The notes beneath the pieces are model-generated. The model made no database searches. It had not been told where the DNA came from and worked only from the letters and a program-made list of their open reading frames with translations. A stretch of 32,053 nucleotides of DNA, from positions 1-32,053 of the forward strand of contig REDT01000207.1 of assembly GCA_007693295.1 (NCBI GenBank), given 5' to 3'. The position numbers and the translations under genes were made by a program. This DNA comes from Balneolaceae bacterium (lineage in GTDB: Bacteria > Bacteroidota > Rhodothermia > Balneolales > Balneolaceae). Below are positions 4,465 through 17,537 of the stretch, one piece after another (the stretch's first letter is position 1; the number at the start of each line of letters is the position of its first letter).

Positions 4465-4767
4465 TTAGAAGCTTGGAATAGGATCACTTCGATACAGGGT
4501 ATCAAGCAGTGTGATGCCTACCAGCAGCAGAAAGAAGACGACTGACGTAATTAACAACATTACATTGAACTGGCTGTCCCACCAAAGGTTCATAAAAAAG
4601 AGTGCCACAATGGTCGCTTTAACTACTGCAATGAATATAGCTACAACCACATTCCACGGATCGGGAATATTTATCCAGGTAACGGCTACTGTAATAAAGG
4701 TGAGGATGAAAAGTGCAGTGCCAATTCCCCACAAAAACTTGGCTGATGAAATATGATGTCCGCTCAT
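4465..4767 (-). CDS. Cytochrome c oxidase subunit IV (prokaryotic type)
   Basis: 100 aa, three TM segments, VVVAIFIAVVKATIVALFFMNLWWDSQFNV typical of the small CoxIV/CyoD-like subunit; directly downstream of subunit III. Confidence 0.85.
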   Translation of the reverse strand: MSGHHISSAKFLWGIGTALFILTFITVAVTWINIPDPWNVVVAIFIAVVKATIVALFFMNLWWDSQFNVMLLITSVVFFLLLVGITLLDTLYRSDPIPSF

Positions 4768-4788: not shown

Positions 4789-5448
4789 TTAATCGATCAG
4801 GTAGAGTAATGGGAAAAGGAATATCCAAATCACATCCACAAGGTGCCAGTATAGTCCGGTTATTTCAACCGGAGTATAATACCCGCTGTGAAACACCTTC
4901 TTTTTCGCTTTAATAACCAGCCAGACCATCAAGCCGATTCCAATAACAACGTGTAAACCGTGAAGGCCTGTCATCATGTAGTATATGCTGAAAAAGATAT
5001 TTGCTTTTTCATGCTCCAGGCCGTCGTACGTATAGTAGGCCCCCGGTGCAATTCCTTTTTCAAGTTTTTCGGCATACTCAAAAAACTTAATTACCATGAA
5101 TATAATCGCCAGTCCGATGGTGATGTAGAGGTTATAGATCAGCCCCTTAATCTGGTTCAGCTGAGCCGACCGGATGGCCATGGCAACCGTGAGTGAACTA
5201 CCGATCAGTACAGCCGTATTTACGGTTCCCCAAAAAGCATTCAGCTCTGTTGAAGCTTCCAGGTAAAGTTCGGGGTACCAGGCACGATAGACAATGTATG
5301 CGGCAAAAAGCCCTCCGAAAAAGAGAATTTCAGTAACAAGAAAGATCCACATCCCCAACTTTGAAGATTCAAATTGCTGATCACTGTCAACAAAGTGATG
5401 CTGTATGTGGTCTGTTTTATGCTCTATGTCAACAGAAGTTTGAGCCAT
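4789..5448 (-). CDS. ctaE: Cytochrome c oxidase subunit III
   Basis: 219 aa; KLGMWIFLVTEILFFGGLFAAYIVYR, MTGLHGLHVVIGIG, GLYWHLVDVIWIFLFPLLYL. Confidence 0.95.
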   Translation of the reverse strand: MAQTSVDIEHKTDHIQHHFVDSDQQFESSKLGMWIFLVTEILFFGGLFAAYIVYRAWYPELYLEASTELNAFWGTVNTAVLIGSSLTVAMAIRSAQLNQIKGLIYNLYITIGLAIIFMVIKFFEYAEKLEKGIAPGAYYTYDGLEHEKANIFFSIYYMMTGLHGLHVVIGIGLMVWLVIKAKKKVFHSGYYTPVEITGLYWHLVDVIWIFLFPLLYLID

Positions 5449-5458
5449 GATTTATGAT

Positions 5459-7195
5459 TTACGCTTTATCTTTGACGGTTGTTGAAATGTCCACTTTTTC
5501 ACCTGCATGGTGGCCATTGTGTTTACTGGCGATGCCAAGCTGAAATTCTGACATCGGCTTGTGGTAGTCGTAAGGCCCGTTAATAATTACAGGAGTATGC
5601 TCAAAATTGTGTAGTGGCGGAGGGGAAGATACCTGCCATTCCAGTGCCCGGCTGCCCCAGGGATTGGCCGCTGCTTTTTCTCCTCTGAAGAAAGAGTAGA
5701 GCAGGTAACCAAACATAATAAAGAAGCCAATTCCAATGATGTAAGATCCGATCGTAGAGAACTGGTGGAACGACTGGAACTGATCAATGTAGTTGAAGTA
5801 ACGCCTTGGCATGCCTTGCGACCCCATTACAAACTGCGGCAGAAAGGTCATATTAAAGCCAATAAAGATTATAATGGCTGAAAATTTAGCCCATTTTTCA
5901 CTATACATTTTGCCGAACATCTTAGGCCACCAGTAGTGAAGACCGGCCAGGAATGCCATTACCATACCACCCATCATTACATAGTGAAAATGAGCAACTA
6001 CATAGTAGGTGTCATGCAAATGGATGTCTACAGCCAGGGCACCCAGCATAATCCCGGTAAATCCTCCAATCATAAACTGGAATAGGAAAATCTGGGCATA
6101 GAGCATCGGGGTTTTCATATCTATAGAACCCCGGTACATCGTTGCCACCCAGTTAAATATCTTAATACCGGTTGGTATACCCACAAGAAATGTGAGGAAT
6201 GAGAAAACCATGTTTGCCAGTGATGATTGGCCCGCAGTGAACATATGATGGCCCCATACCAGAAACCCGATAAAAGCAATGGCAAGAGAGGAGATGGCAA
6301 TAGCCCAGTATCCGAAAATAATTTTTCTGGAAAATGTGGATATCACTTCAGAAATAACACCAAAACCGGGTACAATCATAATATAAACGGCAGGGTGGGA
6401 GTAGAACCAGAAGAAGTGCTGGTATAGAACAGGGTCACCGCCAAGAGCCGGGTCAAATATTCCGATGCTGAGCACCCTCTCCATGGTAAGAAGCAGAAGG
6501 GTTATGGCCAAAACGGGAGTTGCCAGCACCTGAATGATACTTGTGGCATAAAGAGCCCACATATTCAATGGAAGCTTGTTCCAGGTCATGCCGGGGGCAC
6601 GAAGTTTATGAATGGTTGTGATGAAGTTTACACCTGTTAAAATGGATGAAAATCCGAGTATGAAAATACCAAGAGTCATCATCATTACATTACCCCCGGT
6701 TGTGGCACTGTAAGGCGTATAGAATGTCCATCCGGTATCTACACCGCCCGTTAAGATGGCAATGAGCGTAAAGACGGCACCAATTACATAAATGTAAAAA
6801 CTGGCGAGGTTAACCCGGGGGAAAGCAACATCCTTGCAGCCAAGCTGAAGGGGCAGTATAAAGTTTCCAAGAGCGGCAGGTACAGATGGCACCAAAAAGA
6901 AGAATACCATAATTGCACCGTGCAGAGTAAATATCTGATTGTAAACATCTGCATCCATAAATGAACGGGCAGGTGTTAACAGCTCGGTACGTAAAACTAA
7001 GGCAAGCATGCCTCCCACAAAAAAGAAGAAGGCTAAAGAGGCGAGGTACATCAATCCAATCTTCTTGTGATCGACGGTCGTCATCCATGCCCAGATGCCG
7101 GTTTCCTCGTTTAGATAGTGTTTTTCAGGATATTCTTCCGGCTTGTATCGCCGGACCTGTATCTTATTTGTTGGTTTTGCTTCAGAAGTTGCCAT
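5459..7195 (-). CDS. ctaD: Cytochrome c oxidase subunit I (A2-type heme-copper oxidase, YSHPAVY motif)
   Basis: 578 aa; [66 protein letters not shown]. Confidence 0.98.
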
Positions 7196-7204
7196 TAAGC
7201 TTGC

Positions 7205-8146
7205 TTATTGTAAGGTTTTTAAATACTCAATAATCGCATCGATCTGACGATCGTTTAATGTACCGGCATAGGACGGCATTACCGGCTGATATCCCTTGGT
7301 AATCCGCGCATTGGGTTCAAGAATGCTCTCACGTACATAATTTTCGTCAACCACTACAATTTCACCATCTTCCATTTCTCTTTCAGACCCCCATAAACCC
7401 TGGAAGGTGGGGCCTTGCAAGCGGGTTCCGTCGGTGGAGTGGCAGGTGTCGCAGGCGTTTCGGGTAACAAGCTGCTCTCCAAGCTCTACCGGATCCATAT
7501 CATCGTCGGCAGAACCGGCTGTTTCAAGCCAGGTGTCAAAATCTTCCTGTGTATGTGCAAATACGGTAGCAAGCATATTGGAGTGAGCCGTTCCACAATA
7601 CTCAGCACAGTATACTATAGACTCACCCGGCTCTGTAACCTCAAACCAAAGTGATGTATACCGGTTGGGAAGTACATCCATTTTTACCCGATAGTCGGGC
7701 ACGAAGAAAGAGTGTATCACATCATCAGAACTCATAACCAGTTTTACAGGGCGGTTAGCCGGTACATGTAGCTCATTAACGCTTACAAAGCCGGTTTCGT
7801 AATGAAACTCCCAAAGCCAGCTTTTAGCAACAACACGAACCTCATAAGCGTCATCAGGAATGGTGATAAGATTCATATAACCGGTAAAACCCCAGCCAAA
7901 AACAATCATCACAAGAATGAGAGGAATAACAGACCATGTAATTTCCAGTTTATTGTTGTGAGATATTACAGGCGTCACATCCTCATCAGACCTTCTGCGG
8001 TATTTCCAGGAGAAGAAGATGATGGCAATGGTGATGCCGACAAGAAAAATGAGGCTTGTAACATTGATAAAATGAAATAATGCATCCGTAGTTTCAGCCG
8101 TCGTACTTTTGGCCGGAGGAAGCATAAAATCGGAAAATCTATTCAT
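7205..8146 (-). CDS. ctaC: Cytochrome c oxidase subunit II with fused C-terminal cytochrome c domain (caa3 type)
   Basis: 313 aa; two N-terminal TM segments, CuA site YCAEYCGTAHSNM, C-terminal CDTCH heme c motif with downstream PVMPSY methionine. Confidence 0.96.
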   Translation of the reverse strand: MNRFSDFMLPPAKSTTAETTDALFHFINVTSLIFLVGITIAIIFFSWKYRRRSDEDVTPVISHNNKLEITWSVIPLILVMIVFGWGFTGYMNLITIPDDAYEVRVVAKSWLWEFHYETGFVSVNELHVPANRPVKLVMSSDDVIHSFFVPDYRVKMDVLPNRYTSLWFEVTEPGESIVYCAEYCGTAHSNMLATVFAHTQEDFDTWLETAGSADDDMDPVELGEQLVTRNACDTCHSTDGTRLQGPTFQGLWGSEREMEDGEIVVVDENYVRESILEPNARITKGYQPVMPSYAGTLNDRQIDAIIEYLKTLQ

Positions 8147-8982
8147 TACTCAATTTCAATTTTGTGTGGTTGTGTAGAACCTCGCTCGCGTATCCAAAAA
8201 ACGCCTAGAAATATACCCAGAATTATGACGGTAGCCAAGCCGCCAAGCTTCATAATGTTCATTGCAACGGGCACATAACTTTGTGAGGATGGGTCGTATG
8301 TAAAACAGTAAAGAAGCACTCTATCCATAGCTGAGCCTATATTTCCATCGGCTGCTTCATAGAGTGAATTGCGCAGATCGAACTCCCTGAAATTGGCTCC
8401 GTAGAGATAACGGGTAATAACAGCCTCGGGACTTATCATCATGATGCTTGCAAGGTGAAGATATTCACCGGTACGTTCATCATATTTGTAATTGAACCCG
8501 ATTGCTTCTGTAAGGGCTTTAATTGACTCTTCATTACCGGTAAGGAAATGCCAGCCATTTTCTGCCTCAGGTCGGTTCAGTTCACTGATATATCGGTTTT
8601 TAAAGTCAGCGGCTAATTCAGGTCCCTCTTCAGGATCAATACTGAATGAAATTATCGTATAATCTTTACCGGGAGTCCAAACTAAATCTTTTACCACTTT
8701 AAATACGCCATCAAGAACCATACTGCAGAGAATAGGGCACTCGTAGTAGAGCGGATTTAGAAGAACAGGTTTTCCACTTTCAATAAGCTCACCAATGCTA
8801 ACAGAATCGCCATCAGAATTGGCGAAGCGGAGATCAAGAGGAATTTTGTCTCCAAGTTTTTCATCAACGCCAATTTCATTAAGAATGGCGGGTCTGTTTT
8901 GGTTAAGCTGTGCACTTGCGCTATCAAAAATGAAAAACACTGATATCAATAATGTGACTATCTTTGTGGTTTTCATAATCAT
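8146..8982 (-). CDS. SCO1/SenC family copper chaperone for oxidase assembly
   Basis: 278 aa; signal peptide, YYECPILCSMVLDG (CxxxC), TIISFSIDPEEGP, C-terminal TM. Stop/start overlap (TAATG) with the subunit II gene. Confidence 0.9.
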   Translation of the reverse strand: MIMKTTKIVTLLISVFFIFDSASAQLNQNRPAILNEIGVDEKLGDKIPLDLRFANSDGDSVSIGELIESGKPVLLNPLYYECPILCSMVLDGVFKVVKDLVWTPGKDYTIISFSIDPEEGPELAADFKNRYISELNRPEAENGWHFLTGNEESIKALTEAIGFNYKYDERTGEYLHLASIMMISPEAVITRYLYGANFREFDLRNSLYEAADGNIGSAMDRVLLYCFTYDPSSQSYVPVAMNIMKLGGLATVIILGIFLGVFWIRERGSTQPHKIEIE

Positions 8983-8985
8983 TTT

Positions 8986-9501
8986 TCAATCATCTGTATC
9001 TTGTGCCATAATTGTTATCGCACTGTCAATAGGAATTCGATAAATACGTTCTTCAGGATCTACAACACCGAATGATCCCAATGTAGCCTGATCTCTTTGT
9101 TGCAATTCGTTGATGTCGAAATAAAGACTTACTTCAGATTGTTGCTGCTCCGTACCGACAATCGTATAGCTGTAAATTGCCATCAGGGCAAATATCATAA
9201 CCACGATAACTGCAGTACCAAAAATTGACCAAAATACAAGTCGTGGATAGTTGAGTTTGTCGGGAACAGCGCCAAAATCGACAGACGTTTTAAAATCATC
9301 CGACGCCTCCAAAGTTACTTCATTTACATCTTCTTCTGAAACGGGCTGAACACCCGTTTCGCGTACCCATTTTTCAATAATTTCTACCGTAACACCATGT
9401 TTCTCTGCAAGTTCTTGCTTCGCAGCGTCATCGCCAGATACCGCTTTTAAAGCAATAGCGGCTTTTTCTTCTTTTGTGAATTTTTTCGGTTCCGAACTCA
9501 T
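8986..9501 (-). CDS. Hypothetical protein: N-terminal transposase-OrfA-like HTH, single TM, extracytoplasmic tail
   Basis: 171 aa; KFTKEEKAAIALKAVSGDDAAKQELAEKHGVTVEIIEKWVRETG resembles the IS3 OrfA-type HTH; TM LVFWSIFGTAVIVVMIFALMAIYSY; located between actF and sco. Confidence 0.75.
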   Translation of the reverse strand: MSSEPKKFTKEEKAAIALKAVSGDDAAKQELAEKHGVTVEIIEKWVRETGVQPVSEEDVNEVTLEASDDFKTSVDFGAVPDKLNYPRLVFWSIFGTAVIVVMIFALMAIYSYTIVGTEQQQSEVSLYFDINELQQRDQATLGSFGVVDPEERIYRIPIDSAITIMAQDTDD

Positions 9502-9522: not shown

Positions 9523-10722
9523 TTAATGATGGTATTGCTTATCAAGTGATTCGGCAAGCATTGGATCGTTTACCGGGAGCATACTATGCTTTTTGAACTG
9601 CTGGAAAAAGAGACCCATAAAAATTCCGCCCAGACCGATAAGTGTAGCAAAATCGAGCCAGCTTAATGACATTCCGGCATGATTTAATACCGGCATTACT
9701 ATCCAGTGAAGCTCTATCAGGTGCATAAGAATAATGAGCACCGACACAAAACCCAATACTTTTTGATTGTGCTTGGGTTCTCTGTTTAGTAACAGAATAA
9801 ACGGAATGATAAACCGGCCGATTAAAAGTGAGTAGGTAATAATTGCCCAATTCCCCTCCAATCGATGATAGAACCAGATGGTAGCTTCAGGAATGTTCGC
9901 ATAATAGATAAGCAGAAATTGGCTGAATGCGATGTAGGCATAAAACACGGTAAAACCAAATAACCAGGCTCCCAGGTCGTAAATGTGAGCCTTTCCGATT
10001 GTACTCTTCAGCATACCGTTTCGCTGCATCCAAAATACGATCAGAATGATGACAGGGAACAGCACCTGAAAACTCATGGCGAAGAAATAGACTCCAAACA
10101 TGGTGGAGAACCAGTGGGCATCAAGCGACATCAGCCAGTCGAAACTCGCAAACGCAACGGTTAGGGCAAATAACAAGATGCCCGGAGCGCTTAATTTTCG
10201 AAGCAGGTTTGTTAAACCCCAATCGTTTGTACGATCCATTTCAACAGATACCTTATGCAGCTTATATCCAAGAAAACCCCAGATCCCAAAATAGATAAAC
10301 TGGCGTATTACAAAGAAAGGTTCGTTCAGGTAGGGCACCTTGCCAAGCATTATCGGGTCGTTGGCCACGTACTCGGTGTCGGTCCACTGGAACAGGCTGC
10401 TCATACCCAAAATTATCGGGATCATAAAAATGGCCCATATGCCGATATTTGAGAAAAATGTCTCCGGTATTCTTCGGAATACAATTCCCCACGACGATTT
10501 GGTTACATGATGAATCATAACCATAATCAGTGAGGCAAGAGCAATACTGGTGAAGAAGGTAAAACTGGTGAGGTAAGAGAAGAAGAATTGATCTTTGTTC
10601 AGAAAGAAACCGACGCCACTGGCAATTAAACCAACGATACCGGCGCCATAGAAGGTTTTGGCAACATCCATGTTTGCTGGAAATTGAACAGAATCAGTTA
10701 TATTTGGACTACTTGAAGCCAT
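9523..10722 (-). CDS. actF: Alternative complex III subunit ActF (quinol:cytochrome c oxidoreductase membrane subunit)
   Basis: 399 aa polytopic protein; FASFDWLMSLDAHWFSTMFGVYFFA signature; position in the act cluster. Confidence 0.9.
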   Translation of the reverse strand: MASSSPNITDSVQFPANMDVAKTFYGAGIVGLIASGVGFFLNKDQFFFSYLTSFTFFTSIALASLIMVMIHHVTKSSWGIVFRRIPETFFSNIGIWAIFMIPIILGMSSLFQWTDTEYVANDPIMLGKVPYLNEPFFVIRQFIYFGIWGFLGYKLHKVSVEMDRTNDWGLTNLLRKLSAPGILLFALTVAFASFDWLMSLDAHWFSTMFGVYFFAMSFQVLFPVIILIVFWMQRNGMLKSTIGKAHIYDLGAWLFGFTVFYAYIAFSQFLLIYYANIPEATIWFYHRLEGNWAIITYSLLIGRFIIPFILLLNREPKHNQKVLGFVSVLIILMHLIELHWIVMPVLNHAGMSLSWLDFATLIGLGGIFMGLFFQQFKKHSMLPVNDPMLAESLDKQYHH

Positions 10723-10750: not shown

Positions 10751-11734
10751 TTAATTATCCGACTGCGCTTTAATAAATTCTACGAGCGACTGTAATTCTG
10801 CTTCAGAAAGAAAGTCGTAAGCAACCATAACATTGTCATAGCCTTCCACAATCTTTACTGCCGGTTCTACGATCGATTCAATCAAATACTCCTCATCGGC
10901 TATTGCAGATGTACCGTCTGTAAAGTTTCTTTCACTGCCATACAAATCGGCAAAAGTAGGCCCTACCAAACTGCGCCCGTCTAATGAGTGGCAAGCCTGA
11001 CAGGCATATTGTATGTACAATCTTTCGCCGCGTTCAACGGAAACATCATCGTCTCCGCGAACTGCACGGGCTTCTGCCAGTATCGCTTCACGTTCCCGCC
11101 TTTCTTCATCTTCTTGCATAAGTTGCGCCAGATCTACGTCAAATTGGTCCATTTCGGCTTCAGGAATATTTTGACTTTTCTGAAGGGCCCGAACATAGGC
11201 TACAATTGCCCAGCGGTCTTCAACTTTGATCTGAGTATTGTATGCAGGCATGCTTCTGATGCCGTTTGCAATGGATGAATATAGTTCACCTTCAGACATT
11301 TCGTAACTTTCACTTCTGTGAAATGTAGGTGCAGGTACATACCCGTAGCCGCCGGTCATGATAATGCCGCGGCCGTCGCCGGTGCCGCCATGGCAAGCCT
11401 GGCAGAAAATTTCATACATCTCTTTACCCCTGTAGAGAAAATCACGGGTAATTTCCATGGGATTTGTATCCACATAGTTATCATCATCATCTTTCCCCTC
11501 AAACAGCACAGTGTCGTGGCGAAGACCGCCTCTCGAAATGGTGCCGGTTACCGGTTCACGCATAGATCGGCCATCTTCAAAAAACGGATTCACCTGTTGA
11601 GCATTAAATCGCTCCTGGTTCATCATGTTCTGTTGAGGATGAATTGGGGGTTTCTCTGACTTCTGACCACGGCATGACATCATCACGATCGAAATCAAGA
11701 GCAGAATAGATAAACGGGTTATGGTTAAAAGCAT
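10751..11734 (-). CDS. actE: Alternative complex III cytochrome c subunit ActE, here with two c-type heme domains
   Basis: 327 aa; lipobox-like IVMMSC, first heme motif FCQACHGGTGDGRGIIMTGGYGYVPAPTFH (ActE type), second ACQACHSLDGRSLVGPTF. Confidence 0.9.
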   Translation of the reverse strand: MLLTITRLSILLLISIVMMSCRGQKSEKPPIHPQQNMMNQERFNAQQVNPFFEDGRSMREPVTGTISRGGLRHDTVLFEGKDDDDNYVDTNPMEITRDFLYRGKEMYEIFCQACHGGTGDGRGIIMTGGYGYVPAPTFHRSESYEMSEGELYSSIANGIRSMPAYNTQIKVEDRWAIVAYVRALQKSQNIPEAEMDQFDVDLAQLMQEDEERREREAILAEARAVRGDDDVSVERGERLYIQYACQACHSLDGRSLVGPTFADLYGSERNFTDGTSAIADEEYLIESIVEPAVKIVEGYDNVMVAYDFLSEAELQSLVEFIKAQSDN

Positions 11735-11769: not shown

Positions 11770-12333
11770 TTATGCGTCGTAAATTTCTTCAATGTTGGTT
11801 GCCCCTGCACTTTCCAGGAGTTTCTGTACTTTTTCGGATTCAAACTGTGGATCTTCTGATTCAATGCAGACGAAGAACCCATCATCGGTCGCCTTTTTGA
11901 AATTTTCAGAATTGAATAACGGATGATTCAGCTTGGGAAGTCCATTCAGAAAGAACATTCCAAATACAGCTCCGAATGCCGAAAGAAGTATGGTTAACTC
12001 AAAAATTACCGGAATCCATGCCGGAACATTCATTAATGTTTTACCGCTGATATTTAGCGGATAATCAACCACCATCATCCAGTAGATCATGGCAATGGCT
12101 CCGGCAAATCCGAGCAACCCATGGCTGATAACAATCCAGCCCAGCTTCGACTTTTGAAGGCTCATAGCCTTATCCATGCCATGAATGGGAAATGGGCTGA
12201 ACGTATCGAACTTACGGTATCCGTTTTTATTCACAATTTTGGCTGCATCAATAAGCTCTTTCGGATTCCTGAACTCAGCAAGCACGCCGTATAAGCTTTT
12301 TTCAGAAGTTGATGTACGCATTTGGCTGTCCAT
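11770..12333 (-). CDS. actD: Alternative complex III subunit ActD (DUF3341)
   Basis: 187 aa; SLYGVLAEFRNPKELIDAAKIVNKNGYRKFDTFSPFPIHGMDKAM. Confidence 0.93.
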   Translation of the reverse strand: MDSQMRTSTSEKSLYGVLAEFRNPKELIDAAKIVNKNGYRKFDTFSPFPIHGMDKAMSLQKSKLGWIVISHGLLGFAGAIAMIYWMMVVDYPLNISGKTLMNVPAWIPVIFELTILLSAFGAVFGMFFLNGLPKLNHPLFNSENFKKATDDGFFVCIESEDPQFESEKVQKLLESAGATNIEEIYDA

Positions 12334-12336
12334 AAT

Positions 12337-13767
12337 TTATACCGAGTCTTTTCTTGGTTCGGGAATTTTTACTACAGGCTCTTTATACTCACCGGTTACC
12401 TCATCGTAGTTGTGAGGGTCTGCCTGTGGCATTACACCTTTCAGTTCGGCAACAGCCACCATCGGCAAAAAGCGGAGGAAAAGCAGGAAGAATGTGAAAA
12501 ACAGTCCGAAGGTCCCTATATAAGTTACAACGTCCCAAAAAGTTGGGGAATAGTAACCCCACGAAGAAGGGAGGAAATCTTGTGATAGAGAAGTTACTGT
12601 AATAACAAAACGCTCGAACCACATACCAATGTTTACGACAATGGATATAAAAAAGGTGAAGCCGACACTGCGCCGTAATTTTTTAGACCAGAACAGCTGC
12701 GGTGAGATCACGTTACATGCAATCATAATCCAATATGCCCACGCATAAGGGCCAATGGCTCGTAATATGAAGATCGCTTTTTCGTACTCAACCCCGCTGT
12801 ACCAGGCAATAAAGAACTCCATTATATAGGCAAACCCAACCATGGAGCCTGTTACCAGGATAATGATGTTCATCTTTTCAATATGGTCAACCGTCATGAT
12901 ATCTTCAAGCCCGTAAATTTTTCGGCAGATAATCATCAGCGTTAATACCATTGCAAAACCGGAGAATACCGCACCGGCAACGAAGTAGGGAGGGAAAATT
13001 GTTGTGTGCCATCCCGGAATGATAGACACGGCAAAATCGAAAGATACAATGGTATGAACAGAGAGTACCAGTGGCGTTGCAAGCCCGGCGAGAATCATGT
13101 ACGATTTCTCATAGTTCCACCAGTGCCTGTTACTGCCTCTCCATCCGAGGGCAAATCCACCGTATACAAGTTTTCCGACCTTACTCTTGATCCTGTCTCT
13201 GATAGTGGCAAGATCCGGTACAAGACCCACATACCAGAAAAGAAAAGATACTGTGAAGTAGGTAGATACAGCAAAAACATCCCATAGCAGCGGGCTATTG
13301 AAATTTGGCCACATAGCCATCTGGTTGGGAAGAGGGAATACCCAATAGATAACCCAGATACGGCCAACGTGAATGGCAGGAAAAATACCCGCGCACATAA
13401 CGGCAAAAATCGTCATAGCCTCGGCAAACCGGTTAATAGCCGTTCTCCAATTCTGACGAAATAGAAAAAGAATAGCTGAAATTAACGTACCGGCGTGGCC
13501 AATACCCACCCACCATACAAAGTTAATAATAGCCCAACCCCAGCCAACAGGCTGGTTCAGCCCCCAAATACCGATGCCTTCCCAAATCAGATACGCTATT
13601 GATATGAGAAGAACCAGAAGAAGAATATTTGAAATCCCAAAGGCTACATACCACAGCTTGGGAGTGGGGCGGAGATTTATATCCGTTACCAGTGCGGTAA
13701 TGCTCTTAAAGTCGTGATTCCCCTTTATGAGAGCGGGCTCAGGAACGTATTCGTACGTTTTACTCAT
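12337..13767 (-). CDS. actC: Alternative complex III subunit ActC (NrfD-like quinol-binding membrane subunit)
   Basis: 476 aa NrfD/PsrC-type polytopic protein; [56 protein letters not shown]. Confidence 0.95.
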
Positions 13768-13803: not shown

Positions 13804-16800
13804 TTAAGCCAAACCTGAGTTAGTATTTCGTAGTTTTGCAAGATAGGATGTTCTCGGGCGAACATTCATCTCTTCGAGCATTACATAATTTCGATCATTC
13901 ATTTTATCCTGTGAAATTTTGCTCTCTCTGTCGGTGAGATCACCAAATGAGATCGCATTGGCCGGACAGGCTTGCTGACAGGCCGTTTTCACGGTGCCAT
14001 CGGCCGGCTTTAATGAACCGGTAGCAATTTTCGTGTCTCGTTTAGCTCTGTTTACCCTCTGAACACAATAGCTGCATTTCTCAATAACTCCACGGAAACG
14101 AACGGTTACTTCGGGGTTCATCGCCATCTGTATGATTTCAGGATCATCGCCGGTGGTTAAAAACTCTTTTGTGTAATTGAAGAAGTTAAATCTTCGCACT
14201 TTAAACGGGCAGTTATTCGCGCAATAACGGGTGCCGATACAGCGGTTATAGGTCATCTGGTTCATGCCATCTTCACTGTGAGTAGTGGCTGCAACCGGGC
14301 AAACCTGTTCGCATGGTGCAAGTTCGCAGTGCATGCAGGGAACCGGCTGATGGTAAACCGTTGGATTGTCCTGATCGCCCTCATAGTAACGATCGGTGCG
14401 GATCCAGTGCATAATTCGCCGCCGCCCAACTTCCCGTTTGCCAATAACCGGGATGTTATTTTCAGCCTGGCATGCAATGGTACATACGCCACAGCCAAAA
14501 CAGGCATTCAGATCGATCGCCATTCCCCACTGTGGTTGGTGATCGGGCCCATACTGCTCTGTAAACAGAGAAATAGGACCCTGGTCGGCTGTACCGCGTG
14601 CTTCAGCCTCTTTCATGCCGGGCACTTCAAAACCGTGAAAGCTCTTGAAGGTGGCAAAATCTGGTTTTTCTTTGTATTCGTCCAGTGAAGCAGTGCGGAT
14701 CATATCACGGCCCTCAAGGCTGTGGTGATCCTGTACACATGCAATTTCATATTTCGTGCCGGTAGGTTCTACATTAGCCGATTGATAAAACATCGAAGCG
14801 CTGGTACGAAGAGGGTAGGTATCTACGCCAACCCCGTCTGCTACACGCCCTACATTTTGCCTTCCATAACCTGTTGTAAGGGTGATGGAATCGTCGGCAT
14901 GCCCGGGTTGTACCCAGGCAGCAATCTCTATGGTCTGATCACCTGCAGTTATTCGTACTGTTGGAACTTCATTGCTGCTGAAGCTTCGATCTGAGGGCAA
15001 TCCCAGTGATTCTGCCGTTCGTGGACTCATCAGGGCTACGTTATCCCATGTAATCTTGGTCATGGGCTCGGGCAGCTCCTGAAGCCAGCCGCTATTGGCA
15101 TAACGCCCATCAAATAGAGTGGCGTCAGGTTTAATGCTGATCTCCATTCCGGAAACCGGTTCTGCAGAGAGATGCTCTCTGATACCGGCGCTGAAATTCC
15201 CTGAAAGTGCTACATCTACAGAATCAAAACCGGTATCGGGATCGAGTCCGTCATGGAGTACCACTTCCCATTGGCGAGTGAAATCATTTGTGAAATAGCT
15301 GCTCCAGGTCTCCTGTACAAGGTCGTAGCCTGTACTTTCTTCGCCTGTTAATATGGTATTTAAAAACTCAATCTCGCTCAGGCCATTAAAAAGAGGTAAG
15401 ATCTGAGGCTGTACAACAGATCGCTGACCGGTATAGGAGAGTCCATCAGACCATGTTTCGAGAAAATGCGCACGGTTTACGTGCCAGTCGCATATACGTG
15501 AAGTTTCGTCGTAGTAATCGGCCAGATGTATTTTTGTTTCAACATTGGCCAATGCCAGAGCAAGATCCAGGTCGGCAGGGGCGGTATACACCGGGTTGGT
15601 TCCAATCAGTACAACGGTATCGTAGGTGCCTGCCTTCAATTGCATCATAGCATCCATAAAGGCCTGCCGTTCATCTCTGTCGTCACGGAACGGAAGCTCG
15701 TGATAGGTAACGCTGTTACCGGCGTTGTTCAGTGCAAGATTGATGGCGGCTACAGCCGCATGTACTCCGGGCGAATGCTGTTGTCCGGCCGTTACGATAG
15801 AGTTGCCTCGATTTCCCAGAAGATCATCCGCCAGACGGGATATCCAGTCGTGTGTTGAAAAAGTATTGCTTACACCGCTAAAGGCCTGCAAACCGCTTAT
15901 CTGTTCGGAGAGTTTTGCAGCCAATGCATATGTGAACGCTTCAATTTGAGAAGACTTCAGCCTTAACCTGTGATCGGCATAGGAGCCGGTAGAGGTGAAA
16001 GAGTTTTCAACAGAGTAAATTCTCGACATGGAATCTTCCACAGTTTGAACTCTGCGCTTACCGGTAGTTTTATAGGCGTTTTCGACACTGTTTTTATGGC
16101 CGTTGGGGCTCATAAAGTCATCATCCAGAGAAACTACAATATCGGCCTTGTCAAAATGATTTACGGTTCTGAGCCGGCGGCCGAATGCCAGTTGAGTGCC
16201 TTCAATGGCATTATCATCAGAAAAAGGTTCGTACGTAACCCACTCAGCGTTGGAGAAACGGCTCAGTGCATCGCCTTTCAATCGGTTCAATGTAGGCGAT
16301 GAGCTGGCTTCGCTGATAAACAGGATGTTTCTCGCGGTGTCTGAGAAATGATTGGCTGCAAAAGTTTCAAAATCCGATTTTGAAACTTTCTCTTCGTTGC
16401 GCACGGGCGATCGTGACCTGTCAGGGTCATACATGCTCAAAATGCCTGCCTGCTGGTAGATGTTGGTTCTGCCGCCACTAGAGGGGTGATCTTCATTTCC
16501 TTCCAGTTTGGTAGGGCGCCCTTCATTGTTTTCTACAATTAAACCGGTTACCGTATCCTGAAATGGAATACTTGTGGCATAAAAGTTGGGAACCCCCAGA
16601 ACTAAGTCTTCAGGCTGACTTCTGTAGGGAAGAATTTTTTGAATCGGCCTGCGGCAGGATGCAAATCCGGCCAGGGCAATGGATGCTCCCATTACCCGCA
16701 AAAAGCTTCTTCGTGAAACCTGATCTGTAAGCTCGGTTGCATTTTCAGGGAATTCACGCTCTACAAACTTTTCGTACTCTTTGTTTTTGGCAAGTTCGTT

Positions 16801-16842
16801 TAAGCTTTTCCAGTATGTGGTTTTTGTCGACTGATCGCTCAT
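13804..16842 (-). CDS. actB: Alternative complex III subunit ActB (molybdopterin-oxidoreductase-like plus Fe-S domain)
   Basis: 1012 aa; Tat motif SRRSFLRVMGASIALAGFASC with a following lipobox-like Cys; ferredoxin-like Cys clusters CFGCGVCTIAC, CMHCELAPCEQVCP, CIGTRYCANNCP, CSYCVQRV...CQQACP. Confidence 0.95.
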   Translation of the reverse strand: MSDQSTKTTYWKSLNELAKNKEYEKFVEREFPENATELTDQVSRRSFLRVMGASIALAGFASCRRPIQKILPYRSQPEDLVLGVPNFYATSIPFQDTVTGLIVENNEGRPTKLEGNEDHPSSGGRTNIYQQAGILSMYDPDRSRSPVRNEEKVSKSDFETFAANHFSDTARNILFISEASSSPTLNRLKGDALSRFSNAEWVTYEPFSDDNAIEGTQLAFGRRLRTVNHFDKADIVVSLDDDFMSPNGHKNSVENAYKTTGKRRVQTVEDSMSRIYSVENSFTSTGSYADHRLRLKSSQIEAFTYALAAKLSEQISGLQAFSGVSNTFSTHDWISRLADDLLGNRGNSIVTAGQQHSPGVHAAVAAINLALNNAGNSVTYHELPFRDDRDERQAFMDAMMQLKAGTYDTVVLIGTNPVYTAPADLDLALALANVETKIHLADYYDETSRICDWHVNRAHFLETWSDGLSYTGQRSVVQPQILPLFNGLSEIEFLNTILTGEESTGYDLVQETWSSYFTNDFTRQWEVVLHDGLDPDTGFDSVDVALSGNFSAGIREHLSAEPVSGMEISIKPDATLFDGRYANSGWLQELPEPMTKITWDNVALMSPRTAESLGLPSDRSFSSNEVPTVRITAGDQTIEIAAWVQPGHADDSITLTTGYGRQNVGRVADGVGVDTYPLRTSASMFYQSANVEPTGTKYEIACVQDHHSLEGRDMIRTASLDEYKEKPDFATFKSFHGFEVPGMKEAEARGTADQGPISLFTEQYGPDHQPQWGMAIDLNACFGCGVCTIACQAENNIPVIGKREVGRRRIMHWIRTDRYYEGDQDNPTVYHQPVPCMHCELAPCEQVCPVAATTHSEDGMNQMTYNRCIGTRYCANNCPFKVRRFNFFNYTKEFLTTGDDPEIIQMAMNPEVTVRFRGVIEKCSYCVQRVNRAKRDTKIATGSLKPADGTVKTACQQACPANAISFGDLTDRESKISQDKMNDRNYVMLEEMNVRPRTSYLAKLRNTNSGLA

Positions 16843-16892: not shown

Positions 16893-17537
16893 TTAGAAGT
16901 GACAGCTCTGGCAATAGGTTGGGGCGTTGATGTTATGCTTGGCTACAAGTTCAAGGCCAAGCTCAAGTTGATTTTCCGCAACATATCCCATAGTGGTAAC
17001 CTCAGAAACCGGCCTTACATGTTTTTCCGGCTCCCTGTGACAATCCAGGCACCATCCCATACTCAGTGGCATAGCCTGGTAAACAATCTCCATTCTATCC
17101 ACGCGGCCATGGCACGATTCACAACCAACTCCTACGTTTACGTGCACCGCATGGTTGAAGTAGGCATAATCGGGCAGCGAATGAACTTTAATCCACTCCA
17201 CGGGCATACCGCTCTCATAACTGTCGCGGACCGGCTGAAGGCTCTCAGCATCTGTTTTAATCTGGCTGTGGCAGTTCATGCAGGTTTGAGTAGTGGGAAT
17301 GTTAGCATACTTGGATTCTGTTACCTGCGTATGGCAGTACTGACAGTCCATCCCCAATTGCCCAACATGCACCTTATGACTGAAAGGAACGGGTTGCTCT
17401 GGTGCGTAACCCACATGGGTAAATTCGGGTGAGAAGAAATACCAAACGCCAAACACAGATGCATTTAGAATAATAATGATCCCAATAAGAATTCTTTTGG
17501 GCGCTTCGTTTGCCCAACTTGGAAAAATCTGAGCCAT
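16893..17537 (-). CDS. actA: Alternative complex III subunit ActA (pentaheme cytochrome c)
   Basis: 214 aa; N-terminal TM anchor and five CxxCH motifs: CQYCH, CMNCH, CESCH, CLDCH, CQSCH. Confidence 0.95.
   Translation of the reverse strand: MAQIFPSWANEAPKRILIGIIIILNASVFGVWYFFSPEFTHVGYAPEQPVPFSHKVHVGQLGMDCQYCHTQVTESKYANIPTTQTCMNCHSQIKTDAESLQPVRDSYESGMPVEWIKVHSLPDYAYFNHAVHVNVGVGCESCHGRVDRMEIVYQAMPLSMGWCLDCHREPEKHVRPVSEVTTMGYVAENQLELGLELVAKHNINAPTYCQSCHF

Follow-up and report, generated by a model that had tools for sequence, protein, structure and literature searches.

Published descriptions of ACIII give ActE as a monoheme subunit (PMC8552683, PMC5928083). ActE has been placed on ActA, where it is fed by the ActA wire, and in R. 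marinus it is reported to be a direct donor to the caa3 oxidase and lies near subunit IIc in a 20 Å map of the supercomplex (PMC5928083). In F. johnsoniae, deletion of actE leaves electron transfer to aa3 running, presumably because ActA there carries one more heme, its sixth, in a mobile domain (PMC8552683). In actinobacteria, the diheme subunit QcrC provides the wiring to the oxidase, with no soluble cytochrome c involved (PMC8361435). How electrons are handed over from ACIII to the oxidase is an open question, and the Flavobacterium deletions did not clarify what ActE does. Literature text searches, which reached little of the subscription literature, found no description of a diheme ActE.

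Here we describe an ActE with two heme sites encoded in a 32,053-nucleotide stretch of DNA (the window) from a metagenome-assembled genome (MAG) of Balneolaceae, a family of marine and salt-loving bacteria. The window contains an operon with the gene order actABCDEF-ORFG-sco-coxBACD, located entirely on the minus strand, with the following features:

16893..17537, minus strand: ActA, pentaheme, 214 aa (five CxxCH motifs)
13804..16842, minus strand: ActB (B1 and B2)
12337..13767, minus strand: ActC (NrfD family)
11770..12333, minus strand: ActD (PF11821, E 3e-66)
10751..11734, minus strand: ActE, diheme variant, a 327-aa lipoprotein (ORF list, Pfam, alignment)
11165..11452, minus strand: domain E1, the canonical ActE cytochrome c domain, residues ~95-190 (PDB match 6f0k_E)
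11390..11404, minus strand: E1 heme motif CQACH, residues 111-115 (sequence, invariant alignment columns)
11048..11164, minus strand: E1-E2 linker, residues ~191-229, with a predicted helix at 202-225 (alignment, AlphaFold model)
10760..11047, minus strand: domain E2, a CoxB-type cytochrome c domain, residues ~230-325 (BLASTP, PDB, trees, Foldseek)
10988..11002, minus strand: E2 heme motif CQACH, residues 245-249 (sequence; 41/41 Balneolaceae)
10826..10828, minus strand: Met303, probable distal heme ligand of E2 (Met column 100% in E2 and in the CoxB domain)
9523..10722, minus strand: ActF (operon position, length, conservation)
8986..9501, minus strand: ORFG, a small protein, possibly ActG-like, that has a hydrophobic segment (position)
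8146..8982, minus strand: Sco/SenC copper chaperone (PF02630)
7205..8146, minus strand: CoxB, subunit II of the caa3 oxidase, which bears a C-terminal heme c domain of its own (7211-7489; CxxCH at 7439-7453)
5459..7195, minus strand: CoxA (TIGR02891, above cut-off)
4789..5448, minus strand: CoxC
4465..4767, minus strand: CoxD, caa3 subunit IV (TIGR02229)

By CxxCH count and operon comparison, ActA lacks the N-terminal sixth-heme domain found in Flavobacterium ActA. ORFG ranges from ~110 to ~190 aa in length across the order, and its N-terminus in the window gives a weak match, below cut-off, to a transposase-type helix-turn-helix (PF01527).

The actE gene lies between actD and actF, and its product resembles the solved ActE structures: the best PDB match of E1 is R. 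marinus ActE (6f0k_E, E 1.5e-62), and 6lod_E, 8k9e_E and 6btm_E also match. The protein has an N-terminal lipobox, the cysteine of which (Cys21) is invariant among 17 aligned diheme ActE sequences, and Met162, within the MPAY motif of E1, is likely the distal ligand of the first heme. The protein departs from the described subunit in heme number, with CxxCH motifs at residues 111 and 245 and two Pfam domains, Cytochrome_CBB3 (102-181) and Cytochrom_C (233-323), each above cut-off. The ORF, the two motifs and the two domains confirm what a first-pass annotation of the window, made from sequence alone, had read as a two-heme ActE of 327 aa, and the premise of that annotation, that ActE is typically monoheme, agrees with the ACIII literature (PMC8552683, PMC5928083). 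Because monoheme is the described state of ActE, and because homology is not defined by heme count, we file the protein as an ActE variant; in Balneolaceae, the monoheme subunit of ACIII exists in a diheme form. The definition of ActE, described as monoheme in the literature, would need to be widened accordingly.

The second domain is a CoxB-type cytochrome c domain. The last ~98 residues of ActE align with CoxB from the same operon with 44 of 99 residues identical (44%) and 63 of 99 positive (BLASTP, E 6e-24), so that the identity of a little over 40% estimated by eye in the annotation was right. The match far exceeds chance expectation, and in that comparison the similarity of CoxB to E2 was well above its similarity to E1. 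The best PDB match of E2 is the cytochrome domain of R. marinus caa3 subunit II (1w2l, E 1.4e-30); the remaining entries with E below 0.001 are at 4.6e-12, about 18 orders of magnitude weaker. A Foldseek search with the AlphaFold model of ActE returned 6f0k_E first and 1w2l second, the latter with a TM score on the target of 0.94, an rmsd of 1.2 Å and 57% identity. A tree built from 154 cytochrome domains separated the set formed by E2 and the CoxB C-terminal heme domain (CoxB-c) from E1 with an SH-aLRT support of 99. E2 thus has a caa3 subunit II cytochrome c domain as its best match in both sequence and fold, and it groups with CoxB-c apart from E1, which eliminates an internal duplication of ActE's own domain as its source. 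The E2 part of the AlphaFold model is confident (pLDDT blocks mostly 76-92), and the pTM of the model as a whole is 0.41, such that the arrangement of E1 relative to E2 is not interpretable from it. In one tree the N-terminal domains of flavobacterial ActA fell beside E2 on a very long branch, a placement that we regard as an artefact.

To define the distribution of diheme ActE, systematic searches covered the class of the source genome, a sample of the phylum, and the Planctomycetota, and about 100 operons of the phylum were fetched. Two-heme ActE was present in 43/43 fetched operons of Balneolaceae (family f1) and in the single operon of f4, a neighboring lineage represented by one MAG (G291), but in 0/16 operons of the other families of the order (f2, f3 and f5); among the operons fetched from the rest of the class, outside Balneolales, there was none. 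In a census of the class that covered 245 genomes, matches spanning both domains came from at least 86 Balneolaceae genomes and from G291, and the matches listed for all other genomes end by residue 223. The same two-heme ORF is found in dozens of independent genomes, including those of isolates of Rhodohalobacter, Gracilimonas, Fodinibius and Balneola, which excludes an artefact or a peculiarity of the source MAG. Diheme ActE is therefore a Balneolaceae-wide trait shared with one neighboring lineage, and the survey of ActE CxxCH counts that the annotation had called for gave a clear split, diheme in Balneolaceae and f4 and monoheme in the other Balneolales families. ActE is also monoheme in loci from Chlorobiota, Calditrichota, Zixibacteria, Neomarinimicrobiota and Ignavibacteria. 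Five Balneolaceae genomes (G432, G434, G435, G440 and G441), four of them of 1.4-1.6 Mb, gave no ActE match in the census, possibly because small genomes have lost ACIII or because these genomes are incomplete. A locus titled Chitinophagaceae (L143, T5-Br10_B2g13) has a typical Balneolaceae operon with an ActE 71% identical to that of the window and is probably a mislabelled MAG.

E2-type domains on ActE also occur in Planctomycetota. Among the best 80 matches was a 504-aa ActD-ActE fusion with an E2 domain (L193, MAG NAT19), and a search of 392 Planctomycetota genomes gave an ActE match in 122, nine of which spanned both domains. The eight of these nine other than L193 were fetched, and all eight were diheme, six as ActD-ActE-E2 fusions and two as ActE-E2; CoxB bears a heme in 9/9 of the Planctomycetota diheme loci. 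Other arrangements were seen in the phylum sample. Flavobacteria-like genomes encode ActA with six hemes and CoxB with none, and four Bacteroidota loci (L072, L078, L080 and L082) encode a one-heme ActD-ActE fusion of 379-399 aa, a separate cytochrome gene of ~305 aa after actF, and a CoxB without heme.

Two Fodinibius-related genomes carry a third CoxB-type heme domain directly after actE (L109:10715-11059 and L108:9072-9539, complement). It is out of frame with actE (in L109 by -1, where nine A follow one another, and in L108 by +1), has no clear signal peptide, and is under purifying selection (dN 0.17, dS 2.4). Candidate explanations are a triheme ActE produced by frameshifting, a separate but coupled gene, or a sequencing error.

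The annotation had proposed that E2 arose by duplication of the CoxB domain within the operon. The CoxB-type character of E2 stood (SH-aLRT 99 and the PDB match); descent from the CoxB of its own lineage is plausible: E2 groups with Balneolaceae CoxB at a support of 84 in one tree and falls in a polytomy in another (~97 columns). Balneolaceae E2 domains form one clade (support 98 in one tree, UFBoot 100 and SH-aLRT 97 in another), nested within a 90/85 clade of CoxB domains that does not include the E2 domains of Planctomycetota. AU tests did not reject nesting of E2 within Balneolales CoxB, with a p of about 0.40, falling to 0.07 when more phyla were included. The ~97 columns of the domain are enough to settle its family but too few to resolve its source beyond a CoxB-type domain, for which the operon's own coxB is a plausible candidate. 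E2 showed no clear sign of concerted evolution with its own CoxB-c (47.3% identity to its own, 45.8% to others). An operon tree in which f1 and f4 are held together had a log-likelihood 2.1 higher (p 0.55, with f4 being one genome) and therefore allows a single diheme gain in their common lineage, and the E2 of f4 was left unplaced in the domain tree with the 100/97 Balneolaceae E2 clade.

Two other histories of E2 deserve consideration. Cytochrome domains of other Balneolaceae proteins, dehydrogenase-like and ~950 aa long, are almost as close to E2 as CoxB is, and in some genomes they match it equally well (in G395, 1.1e-23 compared with 3.3e-23 for CoxB), such that the donor might not have been a CoxB gene at all but another protein of the same domain subfamily. 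These domains, however, occur in some genomes only, while a CoxB-type domain is present in every intact Balneolaceae operon, and both the PDB match and the tree place E2 inside the CoxB radiation; we therefore give a non-CoxB donor little credence. A single ancient fusion, transferred or retained, as the origin of all diheme ActE in both Balneolaceae and Planctomycetota is somewhat less improbable but still unlikely. A single clade of all E2 was not rejected by the AU test (p-AU 0.29), but it lowered the log-likelihood by 17, whereas holding Planctomycetota E2 together with Planctomycetota CoxB raised the likelihood by 13, and Planctomycetota E2 lies outside the 90/85 clade that contains Balneolaceae E2. 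Two independent diheme gains, one in Balneolaceae and one in Planctomycetota, are favored. Separately, several Balneolaceae loci (L126, L136-L139) contain dehydrogenase-like frames of ~930-980 aa with a C-terminal cytochrome c domain of E2 type.

Both the heme site of E2 and that of CoxB have been retained. Across 41 Balneolaceae genomes, the CxxCH motif and the methionine of E2 are conserved in 100%, and the methionine column is likewise 100% in CoxB-c. The remainder of E2 diverges faster than either of the other domains, with mean pairwise identities in the same genomes of 68.7% for E1, 60.9% for CoxB-c and 52.5% for E2, and several positions that are invariant in CoxB-c, among them the Asn and the Arg in DENYxRESI, vary in E2. 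The E1-E2 linker varies in sequence but is near-constant in length (45-50 aa across diheme ActE). From these patterns we infer that E2 carries a working heme with docking demands unlike those of CoxB-c. Where coxB is intact, the CoxB heme is kept in 42/42 and 28/28 diheme operons (two sets that have genomes in common), indicating that E2 is an addition and not a relocation, and eliminating E2 as a substitute for a lost CoxB heme.

We propose, with somewhat more confidence than doubt, that E2 acts as a tethered relay from ACIII to the caa3 oxidase. A monoheme ActE ancestor would have gained a CoxB-type domain at its C-terminus via a linker of ~45-50 residues. E1 would sit on ActA as in R. marinus and be reduced by the ActA heme wire. 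E2, tethered and possibly mobile, would then reduce the CoxB heme c domain, giving a path of ActA to E1 to E2 to CoxB heme c to CuA of the caa3 oxidase. Such a path would remove the need for a diffusing cytochrome c, and the docking of E1, the route of the electrons and any physiological advantage are to be read as predictions of this model. Because ActA has five hemes, the bypass available in Flavobacterium is absent and ActE should lie on the path, an argument that has been made for the five-heme ActA of R. marinus (PMC8552683). PF00034 matches in the source genome correspond to CoxB and to E1 and E2 of ActE; the others are a single lipoprotein cytochrome, a fusion to a dehydrogenase and a protein with two hemes. 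None of them is a free, soluble cytochrome of class I (PF00034 being the one family searched, in a MAG that is 96.8% complete). Hard-wired transfer without a soluble cytochrome, as the annotation suggested, is plausible. The source genome also encodes a ba3-like oxidase on a second contig (L140, contig C312), where the genes for its subunits I and II are accompanied by those for a Sco-like protein and a cupredoxin lipoprotein, and this oxidase with its cupredoxin is a possible second electron sink for ACIII.

Since CoxB has its own heme c and ActE of the R. marinus type works with a single heme, E2 may not be required, or may have a different partner. In the latter case it could be a branch point, with E1 feeding CoxB directly and E2 feeding a second acceptor, such as the cupredoxin beside the ba3-like oxidase, a peroxidase or a dehydrogenase partner. 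The second CuA oxidase of the source genome, with its cupredoxin lipoprotein and Sco protein, would provide such an acceptor, the loss from E2 of residues invariant in CoxB points in the same direction, and the authors of the F. johnsoniae work propose that the electron path splits at ActE, citing the extra heme of gonococcal CcoP (PMC8552683). However, E2 is itself of CoxB type, caa3 genes always lie downstream of diheme actE in intact operons, and no acceptor gene has been shown to track with E2, and we consider a branch point rather unlikely. It is more doubtful still that E2 serves mainly as a structural clamp or electron buffer that stabilizes the ACIII-caa3 supercomplex, with its heme off the main path: CoxB still bears its heme in every intact diheme operon, so that electrons could already reach CuA, and a linker of near-constant length would suit a clamp, but complete conservation of CxxCH and Met in E2 would be unexpected if its role were purely structural.

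A broader, tentative reading is that ACIIIs have repeatedly and independently captured oxidase-type cytochrome c domains, in Balneolaceae, Planctomycetota and flavobacteria, and perhaps as a third copy in the two Fodinibius-related genomes. The capture sites would be the C-terminus of ActE in Balneolaceae, ActD-ActE or the C-terminus of ActE in Planctomycetota, and the N-terminus of ActA in flavobacteria, where the origin of the domain is putative. If so, repeated capture would be a general way of arriving at quinol-oxidase supercomplexes that are obligate and tethered and function without soluble cytochrome c, convergent with actinobacterial QcrC. Balneolaceae, with an oxidase-type domain on ActE, and its sister families, without one, constitute a natural experiment, and culturable Balneolaceae are available in Rhodohalobacter, Gracilimonas, Fodinibius and Balneola.

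Among the closest known systems, the window operon can be compared with R. marinus ACIII and its caa3 oxidase, with which it shares E1 (6f0k chain E), the lipobox, operon order, a pentaheme ActA and a heme-bearing CoxB; R. marinus ActE, however, is a monoheme protein of 209 aa, and Balneolaceae ActE has the added CoxB-type second heme domain. E2 shares sequence, fold and a CxxCH-plus-Met heme site with R. marinus CoxB-c (1w2l), but it is carried on ActE rather than on CoxB, and several CoxB-invariant positions are relaxed. Caldithrix abyssi ACIII likewise has two ActE-linked hemes per operon, although they reside on two separate monoheme ActE proteins from duplicated genes and not on a fused CoxB-type domain (PMC5317091). 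Actinobacterial diheme QcrC, in the bcc-aa3 supercomplex, is likely alike in connecting a quinol oxidoreductase with an oxidase of the aa3 type (PMC8361435), but its complex is unrelated, being of bc1 type rather than ACIII, and in Balneolaceae the oxidase subunit II also has heme c; the QcrC family model NF050122 scores 43 bits on ActE, below its cut-off of 200. The ACIII of F. johnsoniae (6btm) also has an extra ACIII-borne cytochrome c domain at the oxidase interface. The window operon, with five hemes in ActA and one in CoxB, does not belong to this Flavobacterium type: in F. johnsoniae the extra domain is on ActA and CoxB is without a heme domain, which makes it a replacement, whereas in Balneolaceae it is on ActE and the CoxB heme is kept, which makes it an addition.
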